This document shows, piece after piece, positions 19,543 through 24,108 of a DNA stretch of 41,880 bases (positions are counted from its first letter, which is position 1; each line of letters begins with the position of its first letter). The DNA comes from Candidatus Thalassarchaeum betae (GTDB lineage Archaea; Thermoplasmatota; Poseidoniia; Poseidoniales; Thalassarchaeaceae): assembly GCA_022447095.1 (NCBI GenBank), contig JAKUUP010000014.1:1-41880 (forward strand). Direction: 5' to 3'. A program made the position numbers and the translations under genes. The notes under the pieces are model-generated. The model did not search any database. It saw only the letters and a program-made list of their open reading frames with translations, and was not told the DNA's origin.

Positions 19543-21156
19543 GTGTACGGCGGTCAACAACCGATTTTCATCCTTAAGGAAGGCACCGATAGGACGAGTG
19601 GCCGCTCGGCGCAGAGCAACAATATCGCAGCTGCCAAGGCCGTAGCCGACGCAGTCCGCTCGACTCTAGGGCCCAAGGGAATGGACAAGATGCTGGTCGA
19701 CAGCATGGGAGATGTTGTAATCACCAACGACGGTGCTACCATCCTCAAGGAGATGGACATCGAGCACCCCGCTGCTAAGATGATCATCGAGATTGCCAAG
19801 ACCCAGGAGCAACACTGCTACGACGGCACCACCAGCGCTGTCGTCATCGCTGGAGAACTCCTCAAGCGTAGCGAGGACCTCGTGGAGCAGAATGTTCATC
19901 CGACCGTCATCTGCGAGGGCTTCAGACTGGCTTCCGACAAGGCCTCCGAACTGATCGACACGCATTCCATAGCCGTTGACAAGTCTATGCTCGAAGAAGT
20001 CGCCAAGACAGCACTCACCGGCAAGAGCGCAGGAGCCGTGAAGGAGTTCCTCGCAGATATCAGCGTGCGCGCCGTTCTCTCAGTTGCTCACGAGGTCGAT
20101 GGTAAAATCGTCGTAGACCTCGATGATATCAAGGTGCAGAAGAAACAGGGTGGCTCGATTCGAGACAGTAGCCTAGTCGACGGCATCATCCTCGACAAGG
20201 AACGCGTCCACAGCGGCATGCCTCGCAACGTCGCCGACGCCAAGGTAGCACTCATCAACTCGGCCATCGAGGTCAAGAAGACCGAGGTTGATGCTAAGAT
20301 TCAGATTACAGACCCTGGTATGCTCTCACAATTCCTCGACGAGGAGGAGAAATTCCTCAAGTCACTGGTAGATAAGATACAGGATTCAGGGGCCAACGTG
20401 GTCATCTGCCAGAAGGGCATTGACGATTTGGCCCAGCATTACATGGCCAAGGAAGGAGTCTTTGCCATTCGGCGTGCCAAGAAGAGCGATATGGAAGCGC
20501 TGTCCAAGGCTACCGGAGGTCGAATAGTAACCAACATCGATGACCTCTCATCGGACGATCTAGGCGCTGCCTCCAAGGTAGAAGAGCGTAAGATAGGTGA
20601 GTCCGATATGGTCTTCGTCACAGGGTGCCCTCAGGCCAAGAGCGTCTCAGTGCTTCTAAGGGGAGGTACCGAGCACGTGGTTGACGAGATCCGAAGAGCG
20701 TTCGCCGACGCCATGGGCGTCGTGGCGGTCGCCCACGAGGATGGAGAGGTCTTGACGGGCGGGGGCTCTGTAGTGGCTGCAATCAGCCGTGATCTCCGCT
20801 TGTACGCAGAGGGTATTGGTGGCAGGGAGCAGATGGCAATCGAAGCCTTCTCCGGAGCCCTAGAGGTCATCCCCCGGACTCTCGCCGAGAACGCTGGACT
20901 CGACCCTGTCAACACCATTATTGACCTCAGGAAGGCCCACTCGGAAGGCAAATCGCACTACGGAGTAAACGTCTACGAGGGAGGGGTTGCTGACATGAAT
21001 GAGGGGCGAGTGTTCGAGCCGAGCCGAGTGGTCGAGCAGGCCATCCAGAGCGCTTCCGAGACCGCAGTGATGATTCTCAGGATCGATGATGTCATCTCCA
21101 GCCAAAGCTCCATGCCTGCGCCAGACGGCGCCGACTTCGACGGCCTCGGAATGTGA
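19543..21156 (+). CDS. Thermosome subunit (group II chaperonin)
   Basis: A 537-residue group II chaperonin, normal length. It assembles into double-ring ATP-driven protein-folding cages in the cytoplasm. The N-terminal equatorial domain is clear: [39 protein letters not shown], then [14 protein letters not shown]. The C-terminal equatorial half has [12 protein letters not shown] and [10 protein letters not shown]. The ATP-site block usually written GDGTT reads YDGTT here ([11 protein letters not shown]), a change of the first glycine while the catalytic-type aspartate is kept. The usual methionine/glycine-rich tail is replaced by [11 protein letters not shown]. The start is GTG 19543, matching the family N-terminus [10 protein letters not shown]. 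Other thermosome paralogues are likely elsewhere in the genome. Confidence 0.96.
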
Positions 21157-21259: not shown

Positions 21260-23248
21260 GTGATTGACGTGGCCATCTTCAGCGTCTACATCGAAGACGG
21301 CTGCATCGTCTGTGATGCCTGTGAGGAAGCGGCCCCCAATGTCTTCGAAGTGACCGATGACACCTGCTTCATCAAACCAGATGTCAGAATCGACGGCGGC
21401 TACGACAGGAACGAGGACAAGTCTGGCTTGAAGGCCGAAGTCATCTCCGCTTTCTCAGATGATATTCTCGATGCCGCTGACGCCTGCCCGGTAGACGTCA
21501 TCATCGTGGTCGAAGGCACCGGCGAGGAACCCCCTGAACCAGAGGAAACCGCGACCCCAGAACCAGAGGAGACGATGACTGAGGAGGTCATCGCAGAGCC
21601 GGTTGAGCTCAGCGGTGATAATCTGGAAGGACTGCTGGCCACCGGCGACCGCTCTATGAGTATCATGTTCGGCTCTCAGTCTGGGAACTCCGAGGATCTG
21701 GCCTCGAAGTTCGCCAAGCGGGCCTCTGACTACGGTCTCGACGCCACGGTGGTCGACATGGATGGCTTCGATCTGGCCACTCTTCCCAGCATGAAGAGGG
21801 TCCTCATCATCTGCTCTACTTGGGGAGAGGGCGACATGCCGGACAACGCCGAGGAGCTCTGGCAGCAAGCCAGTACGGATTCGGCCCCCAAACTCCCGGG
21901 CGTGCACTTCACCGTTTTAGCCCTCGGCGATACTAGTTACGAGTTCTTTTGTGAGTCCGGCAAGGACTGGGACCGACGCTTCGAGGAGTTGGGAGCGACC
22001 CGACTGGTCGAGCGCGTGGACTGCGACGTGGACTATGACTCCGCAGCCGCTAATTGGGCGTTGGACGCACTGGCTGCCATGGCTGCGGTCGACGGCAATG
22101 GGGTGTTCCACGAGGACCAGGTTGAGGCAATCAAGGATCACACCAGTGGCGCAGCAGCAGTAGTCGCGGCCGGCGAGGACGGATTCGTAGTCCCTAACAT
22201 CACCACTGAGGCCATTAAGGTGGAAATCAACATCTTCCGATACGATCCGGTGACTTCTGCCTCTGGCAAGGATACCTGGATATGCGCACTCCCGGGGCAC
22301 ATGTCTGTCTTGGAGGCGCTGAGAGTGCTCAAGGCGACTCATGATGGTAGCCTGACCTTCAGGGACGGAACCTGCGATGACCCGACCACCGCGATCTCGG
22401 TTAACGGAAGGCTGGTCCTGCCGGGCAACATCAGGCTGGATTCGGTGGCTCCTACGCGAGACGGTGGACTGCGACTCCGCATCGAACCGCTTCCTGCGTT
22501 CGACGTTATCCGAGACCTCGTCGTCGACCACTGGACACTGGAGCGTAAGCGCGAGTCGGCCAAGCCGTGGATGGTGGCAGCGACCCGCGAAGGAGCCGAT
22601 ACCGCACAGGGAGTCATGGGGACGATGGACCCAGTGACTGCCACTTTGCTGCATTCAATGACCGACTTCTCGAGCGCCCCCCTCTTGCACTCTTGCTCTG
22701 ATGCGACACCTCATTCCGAGGAATATCTCGGTCCGTCTGTTCTGATAGGAACTTGGGCTAGGATAAACGACCCGAGAACTGCCGATTCAAATCGCGAAGG
22801 GCTACAAACAGTAATCGACTCACGAAACGGCATCAAGGCCGAGACTGATCTAGCCTCAATCCGTCGTCAAAACAACTCTTCCAGAGTGGTTGCCGAGGCG
22901 TTGCTAGACGCACGTACTTCGACACTATCTGGGGATGCTTTCAACGGTAGACATGGCAAGCACGTCTGGTGGTACACATGGACGGTCAAGAGCAGTGGCA
23001 GGGTGAATGACACGGTGATCTACAGGCAGGTCTTGGGCCCCATGGGGCTGATGGGCAACTTGTTCTCCGGCGTCACCGCGCGCATGGTCTTCGGGTTCAC
23101 TCGTACTGGCGGCAAGGTGTTCAACGACCTGCTAGGCATGTTCGCTCCGCCAGCCGGCATAGGCAAGATGCCGAAGCAGTTTAACTCACAAGTCGTCAAC
23201 CACCATGAGGTCGTCGCGATATTCAACGAAGTGGATGGTAGGTTCTGA
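21260..23248 (+). CDS. Ferredoxin-flavodoxin-SdhB/HdrC-like fusion lacking most Fe-S ligands
   Basis: A 662-residue fusion. Residues 1-85 are a single-cluster ferredoxin with C15, C18, C21 and C76 (CPVD). Residues 86-115 are an acidic PE linker. Residues 132-275 are a CPR-type flavodoxin (FGSQSGNSED, STWGEGDMPDNAEE, LALGDTSYEFFCESGKDWD). Residues 320-560 follow the entire SdhB plan: FRYDP, LEALRVLKATHDGSLTFRDG, LPAFDVIRDLVVDHW, then YLGPSVLIGTWARINDPR. However, only C372 and C479 remain of about eleven cluster cysteines. Residues 565-640 resemble the HdrC/type-E SdhB tail (SSGRVNDTVIYRQVLGPMG). Electrons could pass between the two N-terminal cofactors, but the SdhB-like part cannot hold normal clusters. 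The GTG at 21269 is an alternative start. The stop overlaps the next start (TGATG). Confidence 0.82.
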   Translation: MIDVAIFSVYIEDGCIVCDACEEAAPNVFEVTDDTCFIKPDVRIDGGYDRNEDKSGLKAEVISAFSDDILDAADACPVDVIIVVEGTGEEPPEPEETATPEPEETMTEEVIAEPVELSGDNLEGLLATGDRSMSIMFGSQSGNSEDLASKFAKRASDYGLDATVVDMDGFDLATLPSMKRVLIICSTWGEGDMPDNAEELWQQASTDSAPKLPGVHFTVLALGDTSYEFFCESGKDWDRRFEELGATRLVERVDCDVDYDSAAANWALDALAAMAAVDGNGVFHEDQVEAIKDHTSGAAAVVAAGEDGFVVPNITTEAIKVEINIFRYDPVTSASGKDTWICALPGHMSVLEALRVLKATHDGSLTFRDGTCDDPTTAISVNGRLVLPGNIRLDSVAPTRDGGLRLRIEPLPAFDVIRDLVVDHWTLERKRESAKPWMVAATREGADTAQGVMGTMDPVTATLLHSMTDFSSAPLLHSCSDATPHSEEYLGPSVLIGTWARINDPRTADSNREGLQTVIDSRNGIKAETDLASIRRQNNSSRVVAEALLDARTSTLSGDAFNGRHGKHVWWYTWTVKSSGRVNDTVIYRQVLGPMGLMGNLFSGVTARMVFGFTRTGGKVFNDLLGMFAPPAGIGKMPKQFNSQVVNHHEVVAIFNEVDGRF

Positions 23249-24108
23249 TGGCTGTGAAGTACGCTTACCATCCAGGAAACGTGGCCCACAGCAGCGCCAT
23301 AGAGGTGGCCGAGACGATGCCCCCTGTCGCGCGCTCCTTAGGTATAGAGCTAATTCCCCTCAAAGGCGCGACCAGTTGTGGCGCTGGCATCATCAGGCAG
23401 GCAAGCAGACGCCTGCAACTCACCCTCAATGCACGAACCTTCGCGATGGCTGAGGCGCTCGGACTCGAAATCATCACCCCGTGCGCTGCCACCGCTGGTA
23501 ACCTGAACGAGGATCTGACGATGTTGAAGGATGACCCGAACCTGCTGGCGGAGATAAATGAGGTTCTCCAGAGGACCTGCAGCATGACCTTCTCCGGTGA
23601 GACTGGAGTCCATCACCTTCTGCATGTCATCGTCGACGAGATCGGCCTTGAGAAACTCGAGGCCGTGGCAAAGAACCCGATTGATTTCAACGTCGCCGGA
23701 TTCTACGGCCCCAACATCCAGCAGGCCGGCGCCTGCGGAGACGACGACGTGTACGACCCCGATTACCTTGAGCAGGTCATCGCGGTCCTCGGCGGGTCTC
23801 CTGTTGACTGGGAGAGCCGGACCCAGAGCGTAGGAGTCCCAGGCCTGTTCTCAGAGGAGCCGACTGTACTGCGTCAGACCGCCGCCGTTTTGTCCGAGGC
23901 CAAGTCGGAGGGGGCTGATTTGATTGTAAGCGCCTGTAACCTCTCACACTCCGTCCTCGACATCTACCAAGGAAAGGCCTCTCGCACCACTGGGCTTGCG
24001 ACTAACATCCCGGTCATTCACCTGACTGAGATGCTGTCTTATTCGATGGGCCATCACAACACCAGACTGGCCCAGTTGCGCACCCGAATCGCAATCATCG
24101 GTGACTGA
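23248..24108 (+). CDS. HdrB/SdhE-like CCG-fold protein lacking most cluster cysteines
   Basis: A 286-residue protein with the two-repeat plan of heterodisulfide reductase HdrB and type-E succinate dehydrogenase SdhE/SdhC. Repeat one has YHPGN11 (family YYPGC), TS43C44G (family CCG) and PC79AAT82 (family CxxC). Repeat two has FYGP155 (family YGC), SVGVPG around 195-199 (family CCG) and SAC230NLS233 (family CPLC). So C44, C79 and C230 remain of about ten ligands, and the non-cubane clusters of HdrB are not expected. The PVIHLTEMLSYSMG C-terminal block is well kept. It is translationally coupled to the upstream fusion, so the two probably form a complex. No SdhA or HdrA is in the window. Function unknown. 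Confidence 0.8.
   Translation: MAVKYAYHPGNVAHSSAIEVAETMPPVARSLGIELIPLKGATSCGAGIIRQASRRLQLTLNARTFAMAEALGLEIITPCAATAGNLNEDLTMLKDDPNLLAEINEVLQRTCSMTFSGETGVHHLLHVIVDEIGLEKLEAVAKNPIDFNVAGFYGPNIQQAGACGDDDVYDPDYLEQVIAVLGGSPVDWESRTQSVGVPGLFSEEPTVLRQTAAVLSEAKSEGADLIVSACNLSHSVLDIYQGKASRTTGLATNIPVIHLTEMLSYSMGHHNTRLAQLRTRIAIIGD

Follow-up and report, generated by a model that had tools for sequence, protein, structure and literature searches.

Two former iron-sulfur subunits in marine Poseidoniales: a conserved gene pair that suggests a repurposed low-iron electron-handling complex

Two overlapping genes in a genome of Marine Group IIb (Thalassarchaeaceae) encode what appear to be an SdhB and an SdhE subunit that have shed cluster ligands and acquired tethered electron carriers. 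Together, these two former iron-sulfur subunits suggest a repurposed low-iron electron-handling complex. The window, i.e. the whole stretch of DNA that was analysed (41,880 nucleotides), carries both genes downstream of a thermosome subunit gene (Table 1). The stop codon of gene 1 and the ATG of gene 2 overlap by one base (TGATG), and both frames are open and well formed, in agreement with the original prediction, which had been made from the letters of this DNA alone.

Table 1. Positions of the gene pair, its domains and its upstream neighbour in the window
Feature	Coordinates	Strand	Remark
Thermosome subunit gene	19543..21156	+	Unvarying upstream neighbour in Poseidoniales (synteny)
Gene 1, ferredoxin-flavodoxin-clusterless SdhB fusion, 662 aa	21260..23248	+	GTG start
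Ferredoxin domain, residues 9-86, C15/C18/C21/C76	21284..21517	+	Second flavodoxin instead in 12 homologous loci
CysJ-type flavodoxin domain, residues 129-285	21644..22114	+	Sole Flavodoxin_1 domain found in genome
SdhB-like part, residues 317-545	22208..22894	+	All 12 cluster cysteine columns replaced
Gene 1 C-terminal extension, residues 546-662	22895..23245	+	Well conserved; also in family f6 SdhB
Gene 2, HdrB/SdhE-like, 286 aa	23248..24108	+	ATG start overlaps gene 1 stop
Codon of invariant C79, gene 2, first CCG repeat	23482..23484	+	
Codon of invariant C230, gene 2, second CCG repeat	23935..23937	+	

The pairing of these genes is not due to chance, since it is conserved throughout the order. 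Gene 2 is 91% identical to its homologue in Candidatus Thalassarchaeum betae, the nearest named genome, and a homologue was present in 37 of 40 relatives, all of them, to judge from their titles, assembled from metagenomes or from single cells. In a phylum-wide sample, gene 2 occurred in nearly all Poseidoniales genomes, the pair being single copy with open frames throughout; none of the six family f3 genomes yielded it. This family, presumably Marine Group III, is the only other one of the same class in the sample. Wherever the contig extends far enough, the order thermosome, gene 1, gene 2 is invariable in Poseidoniales; both the recurrence of the pair in related genomes and its synteny with the thermosome gene, which had been proposed as checks, therefore hold across the order. 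The same gene order was observed in Marine Group II contigs by Pereira et al. 2019 (PMC6741140), where the labels "succinate dehydrogenase cytochrome b subunit" and "sulfite reductase flavoprotein" are used; the passages of that paper on these contigs make no remark on lost clusters. In one genome (G018, L068:5841-8831) gene 1 and gene 2 are naturally fused in one frame from which roughly 20 residues of the gene 1 C-terminus are missing, a fusion that could stem from an assembly error.

Gene 1 starts with two complete carrier domains, as had been predicted. A Fer4_13 match (residues 12-82, E 8e-7) spans the four cysteine ligands of a single-4Fe-4S ferredoxin, and a Flavodoxin_1 match (residues 135-259, E 1.5e-33) marks a flavodoxin that is closest to CysJ (1YKG). 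All three FMN loop motifs are present (GSQSGN, STWGEGDMPDNA and GDTSYEFFC), from which FMN binding is predicted, and the loops are intact in the homologous flavodoxin domains that we checked. A domain search found the FAD/NADPH reductase module of diflavin reductases to be absent from gene 1. Two linkers are predicted to be disordered (AlphaFold2 pLDDT about 30-45). In a search of viral structures, an ordinary flavodoxin was the sole match.

The N-terminal carrier is exchangeable. At 12 loci gene 1 has a second flavodoxin where the ferredoxin would be, an exchange that requires seven changes on the tree of the SdhB part and eight on the thermosome tree. The N-terminal flavodoxins form at least three separate groups; that of L052 is a recent tandem copy (80% identical) and others look as if they had been swapped between lineages. 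Flavodoxin-flavodoxin homologues paired with a gene 2 that lacks the first ligand set as well, described below, have no iron site recognisable from their sequences. At a locus from a deep Cayman metagenome (L036:8586-9998), the flavodoxin is absent and the ferredoxin kept, so the protein can do without one of its two carriers. Since the swap between ferredoxin and flavodoxin matches known iron-saving systems, we argue that this slot handles single electrons.

The second half of gene 1 retains the SdhB fold, which upholds this part of the original prediction. SdhB models matched residues 319-521 (best E 1.6e-16), Fer2_3 matched residues 323-425 (E 8e-10), and this half of the AlphaFold2 model aligned to E. 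coli FrdB/SdhB chains with a target TM of up to 0.84. The cysteine ligands of the three clusters are gone. When the ligand columns were defined against the SdhB that family f6 of the same phylum encodes in its SdhA-SdhB-SdhE operons, they held Cys in 12 of 12 family f6 rows, and none of the 12 columns held Cys in any of the 36 Poseidoniales rows. The replacement residues, e.g. S480 and E528, are themselves fixed. C372 and C479 had been taken for residual SdhB ligands, and this claim failed: both adjoin the ligand columns without lying in them, and they vary, being Cys in 3/34 and 6/34 homologues, respectively.

Gene 2 has the two-repeat CCG fold of HdrB and SdhE. It matched the CCG profile (E 2.5e-8), HdrB TIGR03288 (E 2.7e-35) and SdhE NF042965 (E 1.4e-32), and its AlphaFold2 model (pLDDT 89.6) aligned to HdrB with a TM of 0.90. 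A lack of any structural match to SdhB or HdrB folds had been named as grounds for giving up the idea; both proteins gave such matches. Of the ten cysteines that bind two noncubane clusters, gene 2 keeps three (C44, C79 and C230), exactly those foreseen: the first set reads N11, S43, C44, C79 and T82, and the second P155, S194, V195, C230 and S233. Loss of the second set is order-wide, with S194, V195 and S233 nearly fixed and C230 retained, and no Poseidoniales locus examined has more than one full set. Only eight loci have a complete first set (C11, C43, C44, C79, C82), four in family f1 (L054, L064, L124, L125) and four in family f2 (L063, L127, L128, L137). These loci are early branches of both families, in the tree of the SdhB part as well as in a joint tree rooted with family f6 and built with the ligand columns taken out, the placement of L063 being weak (85/82). 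A single clade of the one-cluster members was rejected (p-AU 0.015). Consequently, the first noncubane set was lost at least twice, separately in two families. In both loss lineages C11 became N and C43 became S (once G); the f1 lineage kept C44 and has C82T, and the f2 lineage has C44D with C82S or C82A. Close relatives with all cysteines, which would have pointed to a local artefact, do not occur among the Poseidoniales, where the eight early-branching loci keep the first five HdrB ligands only. An uncharacterised 514-aa Helicobacter pylori protein (PDB 3KWL) has an HdrB-like part (TM 0.75) and may, judged from this model comparison, be another modified CCG protein.

Two cysteines of gene 2 call for a separate explanation. 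Every homologue (52/52) has C79 and C230, in contrast to the other ligands, which vary or vanish; in the model these two cysteines lie at matching sites of the two CCG repeats, at the start of a helix after a strand. A pure scaffold does not account for them. With the carriers retained as well, gene 2 could instead be a cluster-free thiol enzyme in which C79 and C230 would form a redox dithiol or a two-thiol active site within the former heterodisulfide cavity and receive electrons from the carriers. A weak racemase-like match might have lent this some chemistry, but it is uninformative because intact SdhE shows the same match, and on balance we regard a thiol enzyme as rather unlikely. Racemase-like chemistry at C230 was itself rejected: the PF01177 match is weak, it is also found in the intact SdhE of family f6, and the fold match has a TM of about 0.35.

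Outside Poseidoniales, the best matches were the SdhE proteins of family f6, in which none of the ten ligands is missing, and in that family the genes for SdhA, SdhB and SdhE are adjacent. The C-terminal SdhB extension is common to gene 1 and the SdhB of these operons. We infer from sequence that the ancestors of the pair were the SdhB and SdhE of an SDH or fumarate reductase of the SdhA-SdhB-SdhE type. Gene 1 is not paired with an SdhA; as had been stated, neither SdhA nor HdrA lies nearby, and the one clear SdhA of the source genome sits beside its own SdhB on another contig (C45). This SdhB keeps all SdhB cysteines, is adjacent to a 296-aa membrane protein and groups with the SdhB of family f3, so that the survey for a separate intact succinate dehydrogenase had a positive outcome. 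The SdhA and SdhB of this contig each score above threshold with one bacterial SDH model, and we take these models to be of actinobacterial type. By these assignments, the catalytic SDH of Poseidoniales is a separate bacterial-type enzyme that would handle succinate. Because this SDH is bacterial-type and its SdhB falls together with the family f3 SdhB, we consider it probable that the ancestral SDH was replaced and that the orphan pair was kept and repurposed in Poseidoniales only.

Such a replacement might have left the pair without a function. If selection had been relaxed thereafter, the orphan SdhB-SdhE would be slowly decaying and only the ferredoxin/flavodoxin part would matter, and the unrelated SDH in Poseidoniales and family f3, as well as the variable domain content of gene 1, fit this course. 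However, dN/dS between close pairs was about 0.035-0.068 in the SdhB part (0.15 in one short fused pair) and 0.02-0.10 in gene 2, a few-fold above that of the thermosome gene. As these values are mostly 0.03-0.1, the gene pair is under purifying selection and is not decaying. Near-universal retention in single copy with open frames, and the fixation of new residues at former ligand columns, likewise speak against relaxed selection, which we consider very improbable. Local decay or sequencing error was ruled out by the conservation of the pair and by dN/dS. The codon-level analysis, together with retention across the order, bears out the proposal that ligands were lost in parallel in both partners without decay, and favours the repurposed complex that had been suggested.

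Candidate partners were sought in the genome context. The source genome encodes two 2-oxoacid:ferredoxin oxidoreductases, and these are the putative donors. Sulfite reductase, at which the CysJ-like flavodoxin hints, was rejected as a partner, PF01077 being found in 0/30 Poseidoniales genomes. NuoF was absent from 21/21 Poseidoniales genomes searched (G000-G012, G025-G032), and the complex I operon of the source genome runs from NuoA to NuoN with no NuoEFG beside it. Because the flavodoxin of gene 1 is the only one found, PF01077 and NuoF are absent and the NuoA-NuoN operon lacks NuoEFG, a NuoEFG-less complex I is on this context the best candidate acceptor, if a doubtful one. Family f3 has complex I and lacks the gene pair; such a complex I can therefore, in general, do without the pair, and the acceptor stays a guess. 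Complex I and SDH of Marine Group II have been called canonical (Tully 2019, PMC6336850), with which, for complex I, the absence of NuoF contrasts. On contig C45, a NuoI-like protein (L148:9567-10628) has an insertion between its two 4Fe-4S motifs, which are about 110 residues apart, far above the usual distance.

We propose the following course of events. In the Poseidoniales ancestor, to judge from the state of all descendants, SdhA would no longer have stood beside the pair; SdhB would have gained the N-terminal ferredoxin and the CysJ-type flavodoxin and would already have been stripped of all its cluster ligands, and SdhE would have lost one noncubane ligand set. The remaining set then disappeared separately in the two families, and the ferredoxin slot was refilled repeatedly with a second flavodoxin, as the trees show. 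The SdhB/SdhE heterodimer would serve as a docking scaffold, and carriers on flexible acidic linkers would provide one-electron transfer in place of the fixed iron-sulfur wire. They would take electrons from 2-oxoacid:ferredoxin oxidoreductases to a docked acceptor, for which complex I without NuoEFG is our guess.

The loss of the internal wire from a conserved fold, next to a chaperonin gene as constant neighbour, would also suit a redox-sensing factor, with the flavin or the cluster as sensor, that acts in the assembly, maturation or regulation of complex I, SDH or the 2-oxoacid oxidoreductases. The link to the thermosome is weak, however, because the locus adjoins ribosomal-protein genes in a slowly changing region, and the repeated exchange of ferredoxin and flavodoxin points to electron transfer; such a non-redox role seems to us a minor prospect. 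Since the fixed wire is gone, a scaffold with tethered carriers is the simplest reading, and to the whole explanation, an orphaned and iron-stripped SdhB-SdhE pair that docks tethered one-electron carriers, we give about an even chance. A bolder version, in which an iron-free complex with tethered flavodoxins, converted stepwise and in parallel in two families, is the missing input module of the NuoEFG-less complex I, appears distinctly improbable. The driver of the ligand losses may have been oxygen rather than iron, given the expected oxygen sensitivity of noncubane clusters and the drifted ligation in EtfD of aerobic bacteria.

Marine Group II ranks among the most abundant archaeal groups in the surface ocean, and to our knowledge none of its members is in culture. 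The pair would mark a conserved, uncharacterised part of their energy metabolism. A nearly universal complex that sheds its iron sites stepwise, in two families in parallel, would be a clear case of evolution to low iron (or to oxygen tolerance), and the electron feed to a NuoEFG-less complex I becomes a testable question here.

Among known systems, the SdhA-SdhB-SdhE succinate dehydrogenases and methylmenaquinol:fumarate reductases (TfrB, MfrABE) share with the pair an SdhB fold that bears a C-terminal extension, and an SdhE/HdrB gene downstream of it. Unlike them, the Poseidoniales pair has no SdhA, no SdhB cluster ligands and at most one noncubane set in SdhE, and it has additional ferredoxin and flavodoxin domains. 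HdrB/HdrC of heterodisulfide reductase (PDB 5ODC, 8RVU) resemble gene 2 in fold, whereas gene 2 has lost the catalytic noncubane ligands and is not adjacent to HdrA. The flavodoxin domain of gene 1 is nearest to that of CysJ, but the FAD/NADPH module that accompanies it in CysJ and cytochrome P450 reductase is missing, as is PF01077 from the genomes. Drifted cluster ligation in a CCG protein is known from EtfD of aerobic bacteria (PDB 9OJN, PMC13083937), which has a linear [3Fe-4S] cluster with Thr for one Cys and for which the authors propose aerobic adaptation; EtfD retains its clusters and a membrane part, whereas the ligands are gone in most Poseidoniales members. Finally, flavodoxin replaces ferredoxin as carrier in iron-poor phototrophs (PMC5322553, PMC10287166). 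In Poseidoniales, by contrast, the exchange took place in archaea, repeatedly and within one fused protein, and up to five other cluster sites disappeared alongside.
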